DNA from: Microbacterium sp. W4I20
GTDB lineage: Bacteria > Actinomycetota > Actinomycetes > Actinomycetales > Microbacteriaceae
Assembly (NCBI RefSeq): GCF_030816505.1
Contig: NZ_JAUSYB010000001.1
Span: 2,790,001 to 2,854,000, forward strand
Reading direction: 5' to 3'
DNA: 64,000 nucleotides
In this document: positions 24,894-43,591 of the stretch, piece by piece
How the letters are laid out: every line of letters starts with the position of its first letter
Position numbering within the stretch: the first letter of the stretch is position 1
Translations under genes and position numbers: made by a program
The notes under the pieces: generated by a model
What the model was told of the DNA's origin: nothing
What the model saw: only the letters and a program-made list of their open reading frames with translations
The model's database searches: none

Positions 24894-25768
24894 TGTCGAC
24901 GCAGACCATCACCACCCAGACCGCGGGGAAGAAGCTCCGCATCAAGATGGAACGGCCGAACTGGTCGGGCACGATCATCCTGATCCTGTGCGCGGTCACC
25001 GTTCTCCTACCGCTCTACGTGACCATCTCGATGGCGTTCAAGACGACGACGCAGGCGGTCGACGGCAATGCCTTCTCGCTTCCGGCGCCGTTCAGCATCG
25101 ACGGATTCGTCCAGGCCTGGAACCTCACCAAGTTCCCGGTCGGCGCCGGCATCTCGCTGCTGGTCACCGCCGGCACCGTGATCGCGACGATCGTCCTCGC
25201 GGCGTTCGCGTCGTACGCCATCGTGCGCAACTGGGACCGCAAGCTGTTCCGCTGGTCGTTCTTCTACCTGCTGGCGGCGATGTTCATCCCGTTCCCGGTG
25301 GTCGCGCTGCCGCAGATCCAGCTCACGGGTCGCGTCGGGCTCGACAACCCCTTCGGCGTGATCATCCTCGCGACGATGTTCCAGTTGAGCTTCAGCGTGC
25401 TGCTGTTCACGGCGTTCCTCCGGTCGATCCCGATCGAACTGGAGGAGAGCGCGCGCATCGACGGAGCCACGACCTGGCAGACGTTCTGGCAGCTGATCTT
25501 CCCGCTGCTCGCGCCGATGAGCGCGACGGTCGGCATCTTCGCGTTCCTGTACGCCTGGAACGACTTCATGATGCCATCGTTGATCATCTCGGATCCGGCG
25601 ATGCAGACGCTCCCGGTGCGGCAGAACCTGTTCCAGAGCCAGTTCAGCAACAACTACAACGTCTCATTCGCCTCGTACCTGATGGCGATGGCCCCTGCGA
25701 TCCTGGCGTACCTGTTCACGCAGCGCTTCGTCATGGAGGGTGTCACGCAGGGCGCCGTCAAGGGTTAG
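24893..25768 (+). CDS. sugar ABC transporter permease (MalG type)
   Basis: A 291-residue partner permease. It has six helices and the EAA motif EESARIDGATTWQTFWQLIFPLL. The ATG shares one base with the upstream stop. It ends with the usual short VMEGVTQGAVKG tail. A palindromic repeat cluster starts two bases after the stop codon and separates it from the glucosidase gene. Confidence 0.92.
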   Translation: MSTQTITTQTAGKKLRIKMERPNWSGTIILILCAVTVLLPLYVTISMAFKTTTQAVDGNAFSLPAPFSIDGFVQAWNLTKFPVGAGISLLVTAGTVIATIVLAAFASYAIVRNWDRKLFRWSFFYLLAAMFIPFPVVALPQIQLTGRVGLDNPFGVIILATMFQLSFSVLLFTAFLRSIPIELEESARIDGATTWQTFWQLIFPLLAPMSATVGIFAFLYAWNDFMMPSLIISDPAMQTLPVRQNLFQSQFSNNYNVSFASYLMAMAPAILAYLFTQRFVMEGVTQGAVKG

Positions 25769-25770
25769 AC

Positions 25771-25857
25771 CCTTCGTCTCGCGGGCTCGCTCAGGGACCG
25801 GATCTTCAGCGGGCTCGCTCAGGGACCGGTTCCTGAGCGAGCGAAGCGAGACGAAGG
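25771..25857. repeat. family C repeat cluster (inverted pair plus a partial copy)
   Basis: A left inverted copy (25771-25800) and a right copy (25828-25857, GGTTCCTGAGCGAGCGAAGC then GAGACGAAGG) flank a 21-base partial copy (25809-25829). The same unit occurs at 28690-28812 and 42911-42943. The first base is two bases after the permease stop codon. Confidence 0.85.
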
Positions 25858-25895: not shown

Positions 25896-27578
25896 ATGAC
25901 CGACGCGCTTCTCGTCGAGACCCGCAAGGCCGATGCCGCCGCATGGTGGCGACAGGCCGCCGTCTACCAGATCTACCCGCGGAGCTTCGCCGACGCGAAC
26001 GGTGACGGGCTGGGGGACATCCCCGGCATCGTCTCCCGCGCCGACTACCTCGCCGACCTCGGCATCGATGCGGTGTGGCTGAGCCCGTTCTACCCGTCTG
26101 CGCTCGCCGACGGCGGCTACGACGTGGCCGACTATCGCAACGTCGACCCGCGCCTCGGCACGCTCGACGACTTCGACGCCATGGTCGAGGCGCTGCATGC
26201 CCGCGGCATCCGCGTGATCGTCGACATCGTGCCGAATCACAGCTCCGACCTGCACGAGTGGTTCCAGGAGGCGCTCACCGCCGGACGCGGTTCTGCCGCC
26301 CGCGAGCGCTACATCTTCCGCGAGGGGAAGGGTGTCGACGGCTCCGAGCCGCCCACCGATTGGGGCGCGGCGTTCGGCGGCGCTGCGTGGGAGCGCGTGG
26401 AAGACGGCCAGTGGTACCTGCACAGCTTCGCCGTGGAGCAGCCCGACCTGAACTGGGATCATCCCGAGGTGCGCGCGGACTTCCTCGACACCCTGCGCTT
26501 CTGGTCGGACCGCGGGGTCGACGGCTTCCGCATCGACGTCGCGCACATGCTCACGAAGGATCTCACCGAGCCGCTGCCCAGCCAGGCGGAGCTCGACGCG
26601 ATGGACCGCACCTCGGGGCGGCATCCGCTGCTCGATCGTGACGAGGTGCACGAGATCTACGCTGAATGGCGGGCGGTGTTCAACGAGTACGACCCTCCGC
26701 GCACCGCGGTGGCCGAGGCCTGGGTGGAGACGCCCGAACGTCGCGCGAAGTACGCCTCCGCCGACGGCCTGGGCCAGGCGTTCAACTTCGACCTGCTGGT
26801 GGCGGAGTTCTCGGCGGAGGAGTTCCGCACCGTCATCGCCGACAACCTCGAGCAGGCGCAGGCCAGCGGATCGTCGACGACGTGGGTGCTGTCGAACCAC
26901 GACGTGACCCGTCACGCCACCCGCTACGGACTGCCGTCGCTGCGCGGTCGCGCGGTCAAGCAGGGCACGGAGTGGGTCGCGGCGGGCGGTCCTGCCGAGC
27001 AGCTCGATCGTGAAGGCGGGCTGCGCCGGGCGCACGCCGCGACCCTCATGCTGCTCGGGCTCCCCGGCAGCACCTACCTGTACCAGGGCGAAGAGCTCGG
27101 GCTGCACGAGGTCGCGCAGATCGCGGCCGAGCAGCGTCAGGACCCGGCGTTCCTCCGCGAGGAGGCGTTCGACGGTCTCGGGCGGGACGGATGCCGCGTG
27201 CCGATCCCCTGGACGGCATCCGGCTCGTCGTTCGGCTTCGGTTCGGGTGACGCGCACCTTCCGCAGCCGACGTGGTTCGCCGAGTACGCGGTCGATGTCG
27301 AGGAGTCCGACCCGTCGTCGACGCTGTCGCTGTACCGCGAGGCGCTGAGGCTGCGGCACCTGCTGCAGAGCGAGGAGCGCCTCGAGTGGGTCGAGACCGG
27401 TCGCACCGACGTGCTGCGCTTCGCGCGGCCGAACGGCTGGCAGATCGTGACGAACTTCGGTGCGGAACCGTTCGACCTGGGTGCGGATGCCGATGACGTG
27501 GTGCTCGGCACGGTCGTCGACGGTGCTGTGCCGGCGGAGAGCACCGTCTGGATCGCGCCGGCGGGTCTCGTCGACTGA
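25896..27578 (+). CDS. GH13 alpha-glucosidase / oligo-1,6-glucosidase
   Basis: A 560-residue glycoside hydrolase that cleaves alpha-glucosidic bonds in short oligosaccharides in the cytoplasm. The GH13 blocks are present: VDIVPNHSS, nucleophile D214 in GFRIDVAH, acid E274 in AEAW and D336 in SNHD. There is no signal peptide. ATG 25896 has AAGGAG upstream; the longer frame to 25740 would translate the repeat cluster and overlap the permease. It probably digests what the upstream transporter imports, for example maltose, isomaltose or trehalulose-type sugars. Confidence 0.9.
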   Translation: MTDALLVETRKADAAAWWRQAAVYQIYPRSFADANGDGLGDIPGIVSRADYLADLGIDAVWLSPFYPSALADGGYDVADYRNVDPRLGTLDDFDAMVEALHARGIRVIVDIVPNHSSDLHEWFQEALTAGRGSAARERYIFREGKGVDGSEPPTDWGAAFGGAAWERVEDGQWYLHSFAVEQPDLNWDHPEVRADFLDTLRFWSDRGVDGFRIDVAHMLTKDLTEPLPSQAELDAMDRTSGRHPLLDRDEVHEIYAEWRAVFNEYDPPRTAVAEAWVETPERRAKYASADGLGQAFNFDLLVAEFSAEEFRTVIADNLEQAQASGSSTTWVLSNHDVTRHATRYGLPSLRGRAVKQGTEWVAAGGPAEQLDREGGLRRAHAATLMLLGLPGSTYLYQGEELGLHEVAQIAAEQRQDPAFLREEAFDGLGRDGCRVPIPWTASGSSFGFGSGDAHLPQPTWFAEYAVDVEESDPSSTLSLYREALRLRHLLQSEERLEWVETGRTDVLRFARPNGWQIVTNFGAEPFDLGADADDVVLGTVVDGAVPAESTVWIAPAGLVD

Positions 27579-27605: not shown

Positions 27606-27641
27606 TTGATAACGGTTCTCATTAGCACGTAGAGTGAGAGC
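27606..27641 (+). promoter_or_regulatory. znuA promoter with Zur operator
   Basis: A -35 TTGATA (27606-27611), 18-base spacer and -10 TAGAGT (27630-27635) place the transcription start at the ATG, so the mRNA is predicted to be leaderless. The near-palindrome TGATAACGGTTCTCA (27607-27621) overlaps the -35 and fits the actinobacterial Zur box pattern. Repression by zinc-loaded Zur is expected. Confidence 0.75.
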
Positions 27642-28655
27642 ATGAACAAGCCCCTCGCCGCTCTCACCCTCGCCTCCGTCGCTGCACTGGCGCTCGCCGG
27701 GTGCGCGGGCACCCCTGCGTCGGGCGGCAGTGACGACGGCAAGGTCCAGGTCGTGGCGAGCACGAACGTCTACGGCTCGCTCGCCGCGCAGATCGGCGGC
27801 GACCGCGTCGATGTGACCTCGATCATCACCTCTGTCTCGCAGGATCCGCACTCGTACGAGGCATCCGCACGCGATCGCCTCACTCTGCAGAAGGCCGACC
27901 TGGTCATCGAGAACGGTGGCGGATACGACGCCTTCATCGAACCCCTGCTCGAGGGGGTCGAGGGGGCGGCTGTCGTCACGGCTGTCGAGTACGCCCACGA
28001 CTACCCCGGAGGCGATGCCCACGATGAGCACGCCGACGAGGAGCATGCCGACGACGAGCAGGCGGAAGAGGGCGGCGAGGCGAGTGAGGAGCACGCCGAC
28101 GAAGGGCACGAGGGTCACGACCACATCGAGGGCTTCAACGAGCACGTCTGGTTCGATCCCGACGCGATGATCCACGTCGTCGAGGAGATCGCCCACGAAC
28201 TGGGTGAGCTCGACCCGGACGGCGCGGCCGACTTCACCGCTTCCGCTGACGAGATCATCACCGAGCTGGAGGGCTTCGAGGCCGATCTCGACACGATCAA
28301 GACCGACGCCGACGGCGCGAACGTCGTCATCACGGAGCCACTGCCGGGCTACATCTCCGAGGCGGCCGGTCTGACCGACGTCACCCCCGAAGGATTCGCC
28401 GAGTCCGTCGAAGAGGGCTCCGATGTGGCGCCCGCCGTACTGCTCGGCACCCTCGAGGTCATCGCCTCGGGCGATGTGGCCGCGGTGCTCACGAACGCGC
28501 AGACCGGTGGGACCGAGACGGAGCGCGTCGAGCAGGCGGCGAAGGATGCCGGCATCCCGGTCGTCGGATTCACCGAGCTGCTCGAGGACGGATCGTCGTA
28601 CTCTGAGTGGATGCGTGACGCGATCCAGAGCCTCGCCGCCGCCGTCCAGCCGTGA
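27642..28655 (+). CDS. znuA: zinc ABC transporter substrate-binding lipoprotein
   Basis: A 337-residue cluster A-I metal-binding protein. A signal peptide with lipobox LAGC is followed by the metal-site blocks DPHSYEAS, GGYDAF, EHVWFDP and a Glu near ITEPLPGY. The His/Asp/Glu-rich loop at about residues 120-165 is the mark of zinc-specific members. It hands Zn2+ to the ZnuB channel. It is preceded by a strong Zur operator. The stop codon overlaps the GTG of the ATPase gene. Confidence 0.93.
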   Translation: MNKPLAALTLASVAALALAGCAGTPASGGSDDGKVQVVASTNVYGSLAAQIGGDRVDVTSIITSVSQDPHSYEASARDRLTLQKADLVIENGGGYDAFIEPLLEGVEGAAVVTAVEYAHDYPGGDAHDEHADEEHADDEQAEEGGEASEEHADEGHEGHDHIEGFNEHVWFDPDAMIHVVEEIAHELGELDPDGAADFTASADEIITELEGFEADLDTIKTDADGANVVITEPLPGYISEAAGLTDVTPEGFAESVEEGSDVAPAVLLGTLEVIASGDVAAVLTNAQTGGTETERVEQAAKDAGIPVVGFTELLEDGSSYSEWMRDAIQSLAAAVQP

Positions 28656-29623
28656 GCGGGGCGGTCCCCGAGCGGCCGACGCCCCCCTCTCCGGTTCCTG
28701 AGCGAGCGCAGCGAGACGTTCCGGTTCCTGAGCGAGCGCAGCAAGACCTTCCGGTTCCTGAGCGAGCGCAGCAAGACCTTCCGGTTCCTGAGCGAGCGCA
28801 GCGAGACGAAGGACGCCCTGTCCTGGAGATCGCCGGTGCCTCTCTGCACCGGAACGACCGCGAACTGTGGTCGGGGCTCGACCTGACCGTGCAGCCCGGC
28901 GAGTTCATCGCGGTGCTCGGGCCTTCGGGGTCCGGCAAGACCACGCTGCTGCGCAGCATCCTGGGCCTGCAGCCCTTGTCGTCGGGCACCATCCGGGTCG
29001 CGGGATCGCCCGTGCATCGGGGCAACGCGCGCATCGGGTACATCCCGCAGCAGCGCTCGCTCGCTCCCGACACCAGCATGCGGGCGCGCGACCTCGTGGC
29101 GCTGGGCGTGCAGGGGAGCCGCTTCGGGCTGCCGATCCCGCACCGCGGCGACCGAGCCAAGGTCGACCGTCTGCTCGAATCGGTCGGAGCCTCGCATTTC
29201 GCGGATCGCCGTGTCGGTCTGCTCTCCGGCGGGGAGCAGCAGCGGCTGCGCGTCGGACAGGCGCTCGCCGACGAGCCCTCCCTGCTGCTGTGCGATGAGC
29301 CGCTGTCGAACCTCGACCTCGCGAATCAGGTCGCCGTGACCGACATCATCGATCGGCAGCGGCGCGAGCGCGACGCCGCGGTGCTCTTCGTGACGCACGA
29401 CATCAACCCGATCCTGAACCGCGTCGACCGCATCCTGTACATCTCCGGCGGTCGATTCCTGCTCGGCACACCCGAAGAGGTGCTGCAGACCCGTGTGCTC
29501 ACCGACCTCTACGGCACTCCGGTCTTCGTGCTGCGCGCCGGTGATCGCCTGGTCGTCGTGGGTGTGCCGGATGCCGAGCCGCATCACGATCACGGCGACC
29601 ACGAGCACGGAGGCGACGCATGA
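28652..29623 (+). CDS. znuC: zinc ABC transporter ATP-binding protein with translated-repeat N-terminus
   Basis: A 323-residue ATPase that powers zinc import. Walker A is GPSGSGKTT (K96), the signature is LSGGEQQRL, Walker B is LLLCDEPLSN, and the switch His is in VTHD. The C-terminus has HHDHGDHEHGG, a possible zinc sensor. ATPase homology only begins near residue 52. The first 50 residues are almost all translation of four 30-base repeats (28690-28812) giving VPERAQRDVP-like decamers. The GTG at 28652 overlaps the znuA stop and no later start codon precedes the core, so the repeats are really in the gene. It is coupled to znuB. Confidence 0.9.
   Translation: MSGAVPERPTPPSPVPERAQRDVPVPERAQQDLPVPERAQQDLPVPERAQRDEGRPVLEIAGASLHRNDRELWSGLDLTVQPGEFIAVLGPSGSGKTTLLRSILGLQPLSSGTIRVAGSPVHRGNARIGYIPQQRSLAPDTSMRARDLVALGVQGSRFGLPIPHRGDRAKVDRLLESVGASHFADRRVGLLSGGEQQRLRVGQALADEPSLLLCDEPLSNLDLANQVAVTDIIDRQRRERDAAVLFVTHDINPILNRVDRILYISGGRFLLGTPEEVLQTRVLTDLYGTPVFVLRAGDRLVVVGVPDAEPHHDHGDHEHGGDA
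28690..28812 (+). repeat. four tandem family C repeats inside znuC
   Basis: Four head-to-tail 30-base copies of the unit (CCGGTTCCTGAGCGAGCGCA plus GCGAGACGTT or GCAAGACCTT) keep frame, each adding ten residues (PVPERAQ(R/Q)D(V/L)). The two inner copies are identical to each other. The unit is the same as at 25828-25857 and 42911-42943. Confidence 0.9.
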
Positions 29624-30477
29624 TGCCGATGGTCGACTGGAGCGACGTCTTCTCGTTCCAGGACTACGGCGAGCTCGTCGCCCTGCTCGCGAACTCGATC
29701 ATCGCCGGCGCGGTGCTGGGCATCGTCGGCGGACTGATCGGCGTCTTCGTGATGCAGCGCGACCTGGCCTTCGCCGTGCACGGCGTGAGCGAGCTGTCGT
29801 TCGCGGGTGCGGCGGCAGCCCTGCTGCTCGGCGGGAGCGTGGTCTTCGGCTCCCTCGGCGGCGCGCTCGTCGCAGCGATCCTGATCGGCGTGCTCGGCGC
29901 CAAGGCCCGCGACCGCAACTCGATCGTCGGCGTGCTGATGCCGTTCGGCCTCGGCCTCGGCATCCTGTTCCTGTCGTTGTACGACGGCCGCAGCGCCAAC
30001 CGCTTCAGCCTGCTCACCGGGCAGATCGTGTCGGTCTCGAGCCCGAACCTCACCTGGCTGATCGGCATCAGCGTCGTGGTGCTGCTGGGCCTTCTCGTGA
30101 TGTGGAATCCGCTGCGATTCGACTCGCTCGACCCCGAGTCGGCCGCCGCGCGCGGAGTGCCGACGCGCGCCGTGAGCCTCATCTTCATGGTGCTGCTCGG
30201 ACTCATCGTCGCCGTCAGCGTGCACATCATCGGGGCGCTGCTGGTGATGGCTCTGCTGGTGACCCCTGCCGCCGCCGCGATGCGGATCGCGGCGGGGCCG
30301 GTGTCGGTGCCACTCCTCGCCGCGCTGTTCGGGTTCGTCTCGGCGGTCGGCGGCATCCTGCTCGCCCTCGCAGGCACCCTCCCGGTGAGCCCGTACATCA
30401 CGACCCTGTCGTTCACGATCTACGTCGTGTGCTGGATCGTGCAGAAGGCGCGAGCGCGTGTGCGGCGGGTGGGCTGA
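29620..30477 (+). CDS. znuB: zinc ABC transporter permease
   Basis: A 285-residue protein of the ABC-3 metal permease family with about eight helices. The N-terminal SIIAGAVLGIVGGLIGVFVMQRDLAFAVHGVSELSFAGAA and GVPTRAVSLIFMVLLGLIVAVSVHIIGALLVMALLVTPAA are family hallmarks. Start ATG 29620 or 29623 (double Met) overlaps the znuC stop. It forms the channel for Zn2+ with ZnuA and ZnuC. Confidence 0.92.
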   Translation: MMPMVDWSDVFSFQDYGELVALLANSIIAGAVLGIVGGLIGVFVMQRDLAFAVHGVSELSFAGAAAALLLGGSVVFGSLGGALVAAILIGVLGAKARDRNSIVGVLMPFGLGLGILFLSLYDGRSANRFSLLTGQIVSVSSPNLTWLIGISVVVLLGLLVMWNPLRFDSLDPESAAARGVPTRAVSLIFMVLLGLIVAVSVHIIGALLVMALLVTPAAAAMRIAAGPVSVPLLAALFGFVSAVGGILLALAGTLPVSPYITTLSFTIYVVCWIVQKARARVRRVG

Positions 30478-30567: not shown

Positions 30568-30984
30568 ATGGCTCAGCGGAACACCTGGCAGCGCGAACGC
30601 GTGCGCGAAGCACTCGCCGACGCGCGCGGTTTCGTGAGCGCGCAGAACCTGCATGCCTCGCTGCGGGACGACAACACCGGCATCGGCCTCGCGACCGTGT
30701 ATCGCGCGCTCGCCGGGCTCGCAGCATCCGGAGACGCCGACTCGCTGCAGAGCCCCGAGGGTGAGGCCCTCTACCGCGCCTGCACCACGCAGGGCCATCA
30801 CCACCACCTGATCTGCCGATCCTGCGGGCTGACCGTCGAGATCGAGGCTACCGACGTCGAGCAGTGGGCTCACCGGACCGCCGCGCTCCACGGATTCACG
30901 GAGGCCGCCCACGTGGTCGACATCTTCGGGCTGTGCACCCCCTGCACCAACAAGCGCGACGCCGAACGGGCAGCGACGGCGTGA
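30568..30984 (+). CDS. zur: Fur-family regulator, zinc uptake regulator
   Basis: A 138-residue Fur-type repressor. The N-terminal winged helix (RVREALADARGFVSAQNLHASLR, TVYRALAGLAASG) is followed by a dimerisation domain with the structural zinc site CRSCG and C-TPC (GLCTPCTNK). The regulatory site uses HHHHLICRSC. Zinc-specific members lie beside znuACB as here. It is expected to repress the zinc island at the 27607 operator. Its stop overlaps the permease GTG (GTGA). Confidence 0.88.
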   Translation: MAQRNTWQRERVREALADARGFVSAQNLHASLRDDNTGIGLATVYRALAGLAASGDADSLQSPEGEALYRACTTQGHHHHLICRSCGLTVEIEATDVEQWAHRTAALHGFTEAAHVVDIFGLCTPCTNKRDAERAATA

Positions 30985-40279: not shown

Positions 40280-41350
40280 TCAGTCCTCGCTGGGATCCCC
40301 CGGGGATCCCACCCGAATCGACGCCGATCCGTCGGGCAGGATCGTGATGGTCCCGTTCACCTGGAACGGCACGTCTTCCGCGACCGGTTCGATGGACCCG
40401 TCGAACAGCGACTGGATCTCCACCTCGACGTGCGCCACGGCATCCGCCGCCGGGATCTGCCAGTATCCGCCGTCCGGGGCGACGGTGACCTTCGGCTGCT
40501 TCGCGATCGACCACTTCGGCGGTGACGTGATGCGGTTCACGACCTGCAAGCCGAACGGGCAGGCGGTCGGCTGCAGGACCTCCTGGGTCGTGCACTGCGT
40601 GAGGAACTCCTCGACCCGCTTCTGCACGACGTCCACGAACTCGTCGGTCGGGGTCGTCTGCACGTCGAGCGGTGTGACGGCGAGCGGGGTGTCGGCCAGC
40701 ACGCCGGTGCCGGACGATTCCGCGATGGGGGTGTCGACGGTGACCGAGTAGAGTCCCGGCGTGAAGACCAGCAGGGGCAGCGGGTCGAGCGGGGCAGCGG
40801 TCGCCCCCGCGGCCGACACCTGACGGCGATCCACCTCGAACCCGTTCACCGCGAAGCGATCCGCGCCGCGCACCGTGAGCTCGACGACCGCCAGCGGGCT
40901 GTTCGTGAAGCGCCAGTTCGGAGTCACACCCGCCCAGCCGTCCTGCTCGATCAGGAAGGTGGTGGTGCCCGCATGGCCGCTCGCCTTGTAGCTCACGGTC
41001 ACGGCGGTCTTCCCGTCGGCGGGCTTCTCGGACTCGACCTTGACGTCGGTCAGCGGGGCGAGCGCGTCGTGGCGGAGCATCGCCTCGGATGCCGCGACGT
41101 CGATGTCCGCCTCGTCGAGCGTCTCGCGGTCGACGGCGACGCCAGGCACCCGCAGCGCATCGGCCGCGCGGCCCGAGGAGAGCAGATCGAGGTACCGGGA
41201 CACGAACGCGGAGGGGCCGTAGAACTGCTGGTAGAGCGTGATGCCGCCGGCGCCGAGAGCGGCGATCAGCAGCACGCCGATGACGGCGAGCATGGCCAGG
41301 TCGGCGCCGAGACGGGCGCGTCGTGGCGCCTTCGTCTCCACCTGCAGCAT
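40280..41350 (-). CDS. membrane-anchored extracytoplasmic protein, unknown
   Basis: A 356-residue protein with one N-terminal helix (about 18-42) and a large outer region of mixed beta structure. It contains two Cys (CTTQEVLQPTACPFG), a likely disulfide. The pattern FYGPSAFVSRYLDLLSSGRAADAL is reminiscent of NTF2/DUF4878-like domains followed by Ig-like repeats. No motif permits a functional call. It is divergent from the PIF1-like helicase. Confidence 0.7.
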   Translation of the reverse strand: MLQVETKAPRRARLGADLAMLAVIGVLLIAALGAGGITLYQQFYGPSAFVSRYLDLLSSGRAADALRVPGVAVDRETLDEADIDVAASEAMLRHDALAPLTDVKVESEKPADGKTAVTVSYKASGHAGTTTFLIEQDGWAGVTPNWRFTNSPLAVVELTVRGADRFAVNGFEVDRRQVSAAGATAAPLDPLPLLVFTPGLYSVTVDTPIAESSGTGVLADTPLAVTPLDVQTTPTDEFVDVVQKRVEEFLTQCTTQEVLQPTACPFGLQVVNRITSPPKWSIAKQPKVTVAPDGGYWQIPAADAVAHVEVEIQSLFDGSIEPVAEDVPFQVNGTITILPDGSASIRVGSPGDPSED

Positions 41351-41464
41351 GGCGTCAGTCTAGAAGGGCGTCCTGGGATGACGCCGAGCGTCGGCGATCG
41401 TGAACGGATGCCGGGACGTAGCATGGGTGGGCGCCCGTGTCCGACCGCTGCCCCTGTGAGAATC

Positions 41465-42886
41465 GTGTCCCTTCCCGCCCTGTCCGAGGAGCAGCAAGAG
41501 CTGTTCCGGCTCATCGAGGACACCGGCGAGCATGTGTTCATCACCGGCCGCGCCGGAACCGGCAAGTCGACGTTGCTGCAGCACTTCGCGTGGAACACGA
41601 AGAAGCAGATCGCGATCTGCGCCCCGACCGGCGTCGCTGCGCTGAACGTCGAGGGGCAGACGATCCACTCGCTCTTCCGCCTGCCGATCGGGCTCATCGG
41701 CGATGCCGACATCGATCAGAACGATGCCACCCGCCGCATCCTGAACGCGATCGAGACGCTGGTGATCGACGAGATCTCGATGGTCAACGCCGATCTGATG
41801 GATGCCATCGACCGTTCGCTGCGCCAGGCGCGGGGGCGCCGCGGTGAGCCGTTCGGCGGCGTGCAGGTCGTCATGTTCGGCGACCCGTATCAGCTGGCGC
41901 CGGTCCCGCCGCGGGGCGATGAAGCGCGCTACGTGCAGGACCACTACCGCTCGTTCTGGTTCTTCGACGCGAAGGTGTGGGCGGGTCCGTGGACCGGGTC
42001 CGGCACGAGGGCGGAGGCCCACGGCTACGGCTCGTCCGATCAGGCCGGGCTGTTCGAGGTCGACACCAGGGCCGAACTGCACGTGCGCGAGCTCGTCAAC
42101 ATCCACCGGCAGTCGGACGACGGGTTCAAGGCGATGCTGAACGCCGTCCGCTACGGACGGGTGACCGCCGAGATCGCGGGCGTGTTGAACGCGCAGGGCG
42201 CGCGCACACCTCCGGATCCGGAGCCGGGCGAGGTGCCGATGATCACGCTCGCGACCCGCAACGACATCGTGAACAAGATCAACAGCCAGCATCTCGCCGC
42301 CCTGCCCGGCAAGGAGCAGACGGCGAGGGCCGAGGTCAGCGGCGACTTCGGTCGGGGGGAGGCCTCGCTGCCCGCGGAGTCGGAGCTGAAGCTCAAGGTC
42401 GGCGCCCAGGTGATGTTCCTGCGCAACGACACGGCGATGTCGGGGGAGCCGCCGCGGTGGGTGAACGGCACGATCGGCACGGTGATCCGCATCCTCGGGG
42501 GAGCGGTGCGCGTCGATATCGACGGCGAGGAGGTCGACGTCGAACCCGCGGTCTGGGAACGGTTCCGCTACGCCTACGACCAGAACACCAAGAAGCTCTC
42601 CCGCGACGTGGTGGCCGAGTTCACCCAGTTCCCGTTGCGGCTCGCGTGGGCGGTCACGATCCACAAGTCGCAGGGCAAGACATACGAGCGCGCCATCATC
42701 GACCTGGGATCGGGCGCGTTCGCCCCCGGTCAGACCTACGTGGCGCTGAGTCGGCTCACGTCGCTGGAGGGGCTCTACCTGTCGCGGGCGCTGCGCCCCA
42801 CCGACATCCGCGTGGACGAGGACGTGCGCCGGTTCATGCGCGAGGCCTGGCTCGCGAAGACGACGCCGGAACTCCCGACGGGCTGA
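41465..42886 (+). CDS. PIF1-like DNA helicase / AAA ATPase
   Basis: About 473 residues. Walker A is GRAGTGKST near the N-terminus, APTGVAALNVEGQTIHSLF is the PIF1 motif Ia region, Walker B is LVIDEISMV, motif III is VVMFGDPYQLAPV, and the C-terminal motifs V/VI are AVTIHKSQGKTYERAIIDLG and YVALSRLTSLEGLYLSR. This fits a superfamily 1B 5'-3' helicase acting on replication or recombination intermediates. The start is uncertain: GTG 41465 matches the conserved SLPALSEEQ; GTG 41456, ATG 41423 and 41408 are in frame too. Monocistronic. Confidence 0.88.
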   Translation: MSLPALSEEQQELFRLIEDTGEHVFITGRAGTGKSTLLQHFAWNTKKQIAICAPTGVAALNVEGQTIHSLFRLPIGLIGDADIDQNDATRRILNAIETLVIDEISMVNADLMDAIDRSLRQARGRRGEPFGGVQVVMFGDPYQLAPVPPRGDEARYVQDHYRSFWFFDAKVWAGPWTGSGTRAEAHGYGSSDQAGLFEVDTRAELHVRELVNIHRQSDDGFKAMLNAVRYGRVTAEIAGVLNAQGARTPPDPEPGEVPMITLATRNDIVNKINSQHLAALPGKEQTARAEVSGDFGRGEASLPAESELKLKVGAQVMFLRNDTAMSGEPPRWVNGTIGTVIRILGGAVRVDIDGEEVDVEPAVWERFRYAYDQNTKKLSRDVVAEFTQFPLRLAWAVTIHKSQGKTYERAIIDLGSGAFAPGQTYVALSRLTSLEGLYLSRALRPTDIRVDEDVRRFMREAWLAKTTPELPTG

Positions 42887-42910: not shown

Positions 42911-42943
42911 CCGGTTCCTGAGCGAGCGCAGCGAGACGAAGGG
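42911..42943. repeat. family C repeat, single copy
   Basis: CCGGTTCCTGAGCGAGCGCA then GCGAGACGAAGGG. It ends exactly at the stop codon of the heme oxygenase gene, which is read leftward. It is identical over its length to the last znuC unit. Confidence 0.85.
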
Positions 42944-43591
42944 CTAGGCGGCCGCGCGCGCCCGGTCGAGGTCTTCGAAGAGTTCGGTGTTGAAGCGGTA
43001 GGCGAGGAGCACCTCGGCGATCACGCGCTCCCGCTCGGCGTCGTCCCACGGCGCGGCGTCGAGCTGCTCGCGGTATACGTCCTTGAACGCCGACGGGTCG
43101 GCGATGTCGTCGAACAGGTAGAAGCCGATGCCGTTGGTCTCGAAGCCGAAGCGGCGTGCCATCACGCGGCCGATGAAGATGCCGCCGGAGAGGTCGCCGA
43201 GATAGCGCGTGTAGTGGTGGGCGACGAAGCCGCCGGCCCAGGTCGCCCCGACCTGGCGGATGCGCTCGACGTAGCGCTGCGTGGTGGGGAGGGGCGTGAT
43301 CCGCTCCCGCCAGTCGGGCCCGAGGAGGAACTCCAGGTCGGCCTCGAGTGCGGGCAGGCGCGTGAGCTTGTCACTGAGGAAGACGGATGCCACCGGATCC
43401 TGGCGCATGCGCTCGCCGGCGCCTTCGAGGGCGTCGTAGATGAAGTAGTGCTGCGCGACCAGCGAGATGTAGTCCTCGCGCGACCCTTCGCCCTTCATCA
43501 GGTCGGACATGAAGCCAGCGCCCTCGCTGCGGGAGTGCGATCCGGAGGAGCGTTCGCGCAGGGCAGCGGAGAAGGAGAGGATCTCGGACAT
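42944..43591 (-). CDS. hmuO: biliverdin-producing heme oxygenase
   Basis: A 215-residue enzyme that opens heme to biliverdin, CO and Fe2+ for iron acquisition. Proximal ligand H19 lies in SGSHSRSEGAGFMSDL, and the distal helix YLGDLSGG is intact, as is RFGFETNGIGFYLF. It is preceded by an IdeR/DtxR-like box and by a DUF2470 gene on the same strand. Regulation by iron is expected. Confidence 0.94.
   Translation of the reverse strand: MSEILSFSAALRERSSGSHSRSEGAGFMSDLMKGEGSREDYISLVAQHYFIYDALEGAGERMRQDPVASVFLSDKLTRLPALEADLEFLLGPDWRERITPLPTTQRYVERIRQVGATWAGGFVAHHYTRYLGDLSGGIFIGRVMARRFGFETNGIGFYLFDDIADPSAFKDVYREQLDAAPWDDAERERVIAEVLLAYRFNTELFEDLDRARAAA

Follow-up and report, generated by a model that had tools for sequence, protein, structure and literature searches.

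Among the closest described systems, the Rickettsia palindromic elements (RPEs) are dispersed repeats whose in-frame insertions in unrelated protein genes are read as peptides (PMC10969869, PMC3733652). The GTAG and CGTC repeats (REPs) surveyed by Di Nocera and colleagues in 2013 are small and mostly intergenic, some of them lying in frame and sometimes grouped; their GTAG or CGTC tag is unpaired, the stem spans 5-13 or 8-9 bp, and the CGTC class is reported there without a dedicated transposase (PMC3733652). According to the same survey, intragenic REP clusters encode 43-82 residues, and different REPs are found near the same recB site in two Xanthomonas species (PMC3733652). PARCELs are tandem coding repeats of variable number, thought to be mobile or shuffled (PMC2996958), and the enterobacterial RU elements are intergenic repeat units that are read as protein in gene loci (PMC2759123).

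Here, we analyzed a window, the whole stretch of 64,000 nucleotides from a Microbacterium genome, in which a dispersed repeat lies in frame near the 5' end of znuC, a zinc-transport ATPase gene. In the literature on repeats of Microbacterium, Microbacteriaceae or Actinobacteria, nothing on point stood among the matches listed, most subscription journals being outside the scope of the search, and literal searches for six repeat strings gave no occurrence.

Results

A 30-base tandem array in the znuC frame

The genome of the window (G000) comprises 4.31 Mb in 2 contigs, and its znuA, znuC and znuB genes each overlap the next (Table 1). The NCBIfam ZnuC model PRK09544 scored 109 bits, under its cut-off of 306, and therefore the name ZnuC is taken from the gene context, an ABC ATPase gene between the ZnuA and ABC-3 permease genes (PF00005, PF01297 and PF00950 adjacent). 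The nearest named ZnuC loci belong to Microbacterium (e.g. M. galbinum, 92%; M. algeriense, 93%; aligned part only), and for one close locus the label stops at Microbacteriaceae. An ORF 3' of znuB (30568-30984, + strand) resembles, by eye, a regulator of the Fur family, which from its context may be Zur. The imperfect palindrome TGATAACGGTTCTCATTA upstream of znuA (27607-27624) looks like what we take to be a Zur box.

The sequence-only reading had reported four head-to-tail 30-base copies in znuC that keep the frame, and the array (28692-28811) bears this out, with start-to-start spacings of 30, 30 and 30. The decapeptide proposed for each copy, PVPERAQ(R/Q)D(V/L), holds for copies 1-3, whereas copy 4 ends differently. 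Copies 1 and 4 differ from copies 2 and 3 at two core bases. The repeat core, CCGGTTCCTGAGCGAGCGCAGCGAGACG, is 28 bases long and reaches 30 with two flank bases, and AAGGACG, the tail of the single dispersed copies, is present in the array after copy 4 only. The array is free of stops in five of six frames, and its copy number was read in one strain of the species.

Table 1 Features of the znu locus and type-A repeat copies in the window
Feature	Position	Strand	Basis
Single intergenic repeat copy, 1 mismatch	25827..25853	+	Core search
znuA, zinc-binding protein, 337 aa	27642..28655	+	Pfam PF01297 ZnuA, E 2.7e-53; ORF
znuC, ATPase gene (323 aa) carrying the repeat-derived leader	28652..29623	+	ORF; PF00005 residues 75-218
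ZnuC leader, 56 codons ahead of conserved ATPase start VLEI	28652..28819	+	Comparison with relatives; model
Possible half repeat CGGTCCCCGAGCGGCCG (VPERP), resembling GGTCCCTGAGCG in relative G115 (G115 leader p 0.020)	28662..28678	+	
Copy 1, PVPERAQRDV	28692..28721	+	
Copy 2, PVPERAQQDL	28722..28751	+	
Copy 3, PVPERAQQDL, identical to copy 2	28752..28781	+	
Copy 4, PVPERAQRDE, continuing into repeat tail AAGGACG	28782..28815	+	
znuB, permease	29620..30477	+	PF00950 ABC-3, E 1.1e-42
Single intergenic repeat copy between convergent genes	42912..42938	+	Core search

The repeat is dispersed and largely avoids genes

The repeat, termed type A, is about 33 bases long and close to CCGGTTCCTGAGCGAGCGCAGCGAGACGAAGGGC. 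Its 27-base core, searched with up to 3 mismatches, was found at 6 places in the window, the four in znuC and two singles, and at none in 100 shuffles. The singles agree with the earlier description of the unit as an ordinary intergenic element: one follows an ORF with its end at 25768 and precedes the likely ATG (by eye) of an amylase-family ORF at 25896, and the other is flanked by two convergent ORFs, whose ends are at 42886 and 42944. The ORFs around the latter copy appear, by eye, to be helicase-like (40973-42886) and heme-oxygenase-like (convergent, 42944-43591).

A genome-wide search for all copies of the unit gave 42 places with at most 1 mismatch, while the reversed-pattern control gave 0. 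A codon-model rule assigned 5 of the 42 as read through within genes and 7 as close to gene ends, although this automatic rule misses the znuC array itself and the N-terminal case L019 (SDR-like by eye). In the random-position control for 30 type-A loci, 411 of 600 positions were called internal. For a second dispersed repeat, type B (CCCTTCGACAGGCTCAGGGACC), 30 of its 87 places were assessed: 3/30 sites were internal and 7/30 terminal, as compared with 358/600 internal at random positions. Since the site counts fall below the random-position controls, the repeats avoid genes, without wholly sparing them.

The Y1 transposase that marks GTAG REP/RAYT systems was found in 0 of 12 genomes by a search for Y1_Tnp (PF01797) only, with the control search positive in 5 of 14 named genomes; a REP/RAYT origin is thus unsupported. 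On the reverse strand, the repeat tail contains CGTC (CGTCTCGCT) with no adjoining stem, and the ends of the type-A unit lack sharp definition. Instead of the 8-9 bp stem and 4-5 base loop of CGTC REPs, the longest uninterrupted stem of the units has 4 pairs, and the four consensus units fold with at most 6 pairs round a bulge and an 11-base loop, none forming a strong hairpin (z +0.85, -1.42, +0.10 and +0.06). The published survey lists CGTC repeats for five phyla, a list from which Actinobacteria are absent (PMC3733652).

A probable leader start at a GTG overlapping the znuA stop

The znuC GTG at 28652 overlaps the znuA TGA (GTGA) and is the sole in-frame ATG, GTG or TTG upstream of the ATPase part, as expected from the earlier claim that no other start is plausible. 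The next in-frame canonical start lies 3 codons ahead of the Walker block, at about residue 80, within the fold (strand 70-80). ATPase homology does begin after the repeats; the residue formerly given for it, about 52, requires revision, since the stretch common to relatives starts at about residue 57 (VLEI) and the Pfam ABC_tran match at residue 75. In an AlphaFold2 model based on an alignment of 27 sequences, residues 1-51 have pLDDT values below 50 nearly throughout and no secondary structure, and the first strand starts from residue 58. From the start codon, the frame and the comparison with relatives, we infer that the leader is translated; read from the GTG overlapping the znuA stop, it most likely forms a floppy Pro/Arg/Glu-rich N-terminal tail, as the model predicts.

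Leader length varies in whole codons across the genus

A ZnuC match at E <= 1e-70 was obtained in 145 of the 149 genus genomes drawn (G000 included). We read 50 junctions, those of the first 30 loci listed and of the 20 that followed in rank. An NTGA-type start was present at 49/50, and in 48/50 its TGA terminates a reading frame that is free of stops over 50 or more codons upstream. Among the named loci, 78/80 were readable, of which 77 had an NTGA-type start and 72 a stop-free upstream frame of that length; the two sets overlap in species. The genus leaders span 2-56 codons (n=49, leaving out L116, which has no NTGA-type start), the window's being the longest, and those of the named loci span 3-39 aa. 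Leader lengths differ in whole codons, while the stop-overlapping start is mostly kept.

Compared with dinucleotide shuffles, 12 of the 49 leaders, including the window's, resemble dispersed repeats at p <= 0.025, where about 1 would be expected; these p values carry no additional multiple-test correction. Seven leaders (L039, which is the window's, L041, L050, L051, L053, L066 and L099) scored better than all 300 shuffles, and five further ones (L044, L052, L059, L067 and L110) had p values of 0.010-0.023. The other 37/49 leaders had no significant dispersed-repeat match.

The type-A array of the window occurs in no other leader read, in either the genus or the named set. When znuC was compared with related Microbacterium loci in a tree of 30 junctions, the window's closest neighbours were without the array, the fork support being 90/92 and hence outside the well-supported forks. 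The ZnuC protein P0002 (JGI source) has a leader that ends with PVPERGAERRDEGRP before VLEI, which corresponds to one copy of a longer type-A variant. A search for the exact 30-base array gave no match in a genome contig collection that possibly does not include the window's own genome. Together with the identity of copies 2 and 3, the array-free nearest relatives and the single copy in P0002 favor the insertion at the znuA-znuC junction and later tandem expansion that had been suggested for this site.

Different repeats occupy the same leader

The type-B repeat is present in leaders L041 and L050. In L041 (G087), the type-B head occurs once and is followed by 4 x 24 bases, each comprising a repeat part and flank and together read as (AQGPxGAx)4; the leader of M. 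oxydans BEL4b (L240) is the same. L050 has two such units with a spacer different from that in L041. A further variant is found in L066, where it reads CGCTGAGCCCGTCGAAGCG, and in M. aerolatum (L273). Exact type-B counts were 46 in G000, 212 in G087, 65 in G116, 42 in G078, 12 in G115, 83 in G005, 3 in G098 and 0 in G053, with a control count of 0 in all 8 genomes. The tree of 30 junctions fits either one old type-B insertion with losses or several insertions. The G087 leader shows the putative mechanism, a dispersed-repeat head and then an apparent in-frame duplication of the repeat part plus flank. Repeats other than type A thus recur in the ZnuC leader.

The repeat is read in other genes, and their linkers vary among species

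In the window's own genome, the type-A repeat is read in frame in ZnuC, the tail of a VWA protein, HrpA, an FAH-family protein, a DsbD/CcdA-like protein, a response-regulator-like protein and the L020 protein. The VWA protein (L031; PF13519) ends in four 10-residue repeats, PRSLSERSEP, which are type-A DNA read in a different frame and repeating every 30 bases, the first unit being decayed. HrpA matched TIGR01967 with 970 bits (cut-off 723) and the FAH-family protein PRK12764 with 813 bits (cut-off 444). The DsbD/CcdA-like label comes, by eye, from one weak match below the cut-off, the response-regulator-like host has matches below the cut-off among the matches listed, and the fifth internal host is an unnamed 402-aa protein. 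Besides its tail array, L031 (1287-2540) contains a 21-residue stretch that reads as two type-B repeats (2483883 and 2483914).

We compared the HrpA linker, PGPERAQRDEG in the window's genome, with those of 8 relatives. It is STSSGTSG in G005, read by eye as type B, and STGSGTQ-ATGSGTQ in G116; the linker is short in G066, G115, G002, G087 and G148, and G022 has a different one. The VWA tail, also compared in 8 relatives, contains three 21-residue units of another type-A variant in G022, two copies in G005, one each in G115 and G066, two read as type B in G087, and no repeats in G116, G002 and G148. Tandem peptides occupy the VWA loop in G116 and G087. The gene for the 402-aa protein was found at E <= 1e-50 in 3/8 relatives, and their linkers differ. 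Where compared, one linker carries different repeats, or none, across species.

Tandem arrays across the genus

Tandem copies of the type-A core at periods of 21-30 were found in 72/366 genomes, and arrays by a wider pattern in 39/149, both with a control of 0. The 43 arrays considered come from 40 regions picked by hand among the matches listed, with the window's and L031 added, two of the arrays having two copies only. By open frame and codon score, six arrays were read as coding: ZnuC, the VWA tail, an MFS loop and a two-ATPase protein (period 30 each), a DnaX linker (27) and an ABC exporter tail (45), the two-ATPase and exporter identities being assigned by eye. Periods divisible by three occur in 6/6 coding arrays versus 10/37 others (hypergeometric about 0.001, by hand), a contrast with some circularity, as the coding class required an open frame, and L186 (PucR-like by eye) among the 37 may be coding as well. 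A frame-blind test of 41 arrays gave a weak difference, with divisible-by-three periods in 9/15 arrays with a coding-like flank versus 5/26 without (p 0.015), and a strict version, requiring the two flanks to share a coding frame, did not reach significance (p 1.0).

Some candidates were rejected as coding arrays. The period-23 array L163 (G236:C2:400000-403000), called coding by the test, is intergenic, as a TGA in its first copy closes the upstream frame. L157 and L176, considered as N-terminal arrays, were counted as intergenic, with a possible start ATG 3' of the array.

The DnaX array (L152, G170:C10:270000-273000) has four 9-residue units and a further copy in a proline-rich linker. A PfkB kinase of Microbacterium sp. 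NPDC057650, seen as protein only, has six copies at 9-residue spacing that end with PAPERAQRDEGRPVL, much like ZnuC, and its Pfam kinase domain is found in two stretches. In some arrays not read as coding (e.g. G086 and G090), the spacer is duplicated along with the unit, a pattern that favors duplication in situ over repeated insertion. G221 has 32 type-A tandem pairs, the highest number among the genomes listed; the 10 pairs listed all have a spacing of 28 with GAAACG between the copies.

Discussion

Like the RPEs in their published description, the type-A repeat lies in frame in several unrelated genes. In contrast, RPEs are about 150 bases long and palindromic by name (PMC10969869), while the units here have 23-34 bases and no strong hairpin, the host is an actinobacterium, the units are duplicated in tandem in frame, and the same linkers carry different repeats across species. 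PARCELs are described as amphipathic domains of 25 residues within ORFs whose function is unknown (PMC2996958), whereas the present units of 7-21 residues lie in linkers, several of them in housekeeping proteins. RU elements are MITE-like and have 103-168 bases, and their abstract makes no mention of tandem growth (PMC2759123). What is unusual here is the in-frame tandem growth and the occupation of one linker by different repeats according to species, neither being wholly without precedent.

We consider it probable that a mostly intergenic repeat entered the znuA-znuC junction, was tolerated as a disordered leader and grew by in-frame tandem duplication in a nearly neutral manner. The type-A repeat would have been inserted into the overlapping junction in this Microbacterium lineage and tolerated as part of the disordered ZnuC leader, since five of the six array frames are open. 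A 30-base block, two flank bases plus the repeat through GAGACG, would then have been duplicated locally to give four copies; these limits are suggested because the core plus two flank bases makes 30 and only copy 4 runs into AAGGACG. Only steps in multiples of three would keep the ATPase in frame, and the GTG overlapping the znuA stop would start a leader whose tail is most likely near-neutral. We infer the order of events, the duplication mechanism and the near-neutrality from the comparisons above.

Other explanations differ mainly in whether the array acts as protein. The array might be an untranslated spacer, with ribosomes restarting at the CTG of VLEI, CTG being a rare start codon, and using the AAGGA of the last copy as a Shine-Dalgarno-like site, which we regard as improbable. 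AAGGA does lie 9 bases 5' of this in-frame CTG, and the REP survey cautions that N-terminal REPs may be untranslated, with the true start downstream (PMC3733652). However, some relatives (e.g. L042, L046 and L047) have CTC at that leucine, the stop-overlapping start is kept in 48/50 and 72/78 junctions, and the leaders are open in whole codons over many lengths. An RNA- or DNA-level role, for instance in setting the ZnuA:ZnuC ratio, seems to us no likelier. REPs between binding-protein and transporter genes can set their ratio, the array sits between the binding-protein and ATPase genes, and the repeats are otherwise mostly intergenic. On the other hand, the array folds no better than shuffled sequences (z +0.75; 158/200 fold at least as well), its single units are without a strong hairpin, and it occurs in no other leader read.

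The sequence-only reading had favored a special domestication on a zinc-transport ATPase. This does not fit well with the type-A repeat being read in frame, and in other frames, in several other genes, and it is further weakened by the other repeats that the ZnuC leader hosts and by the finding of no sign of function or selection. A true domestication, in which the length or charge of the leader adjusts the activity of ZnuC or its binding to partners when zinc is limiting, has little to recommend it in our estimation: although the frame is kept open and at least two lineages have lengthened the same leader with different repeats, some relatives manage with 2-6 residues, the leader is disordered in the model, and the same repeats occur in unrelated proteins. 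That the array is an assembly error is hardly credible; short tandem repeats may be mis-assembled, but the copies are distinguishable at defined positions, another gene holds a 4 x 30 array of type A as well, and similar arrays occur in other genomes.

The insertion and near-neutral in-frame growth of a dispersed repeat looks like a recurring route to new protein linkers rather than a one-off, since relatives and other genes show likewise with different repeats. More tentatively, and in our judgment rather doubtfully, at least two dispersed families may keep entering the ZnuC leader, the HrpA linker and the VWA loop and tail and growing in frame, to give species-specific hypervariable linkers whose copy number may vary by strain and tune function. 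The comparative series from no repeat to one, decayed repeats and a tandem array traces how dispersed and mostly intergenic DNA turns into protein sequence in free-living actinobacteria. With several species holding different repeats in the same linkers, the tolerance and evolution of linkers are directly testable by species comparison and deletion.
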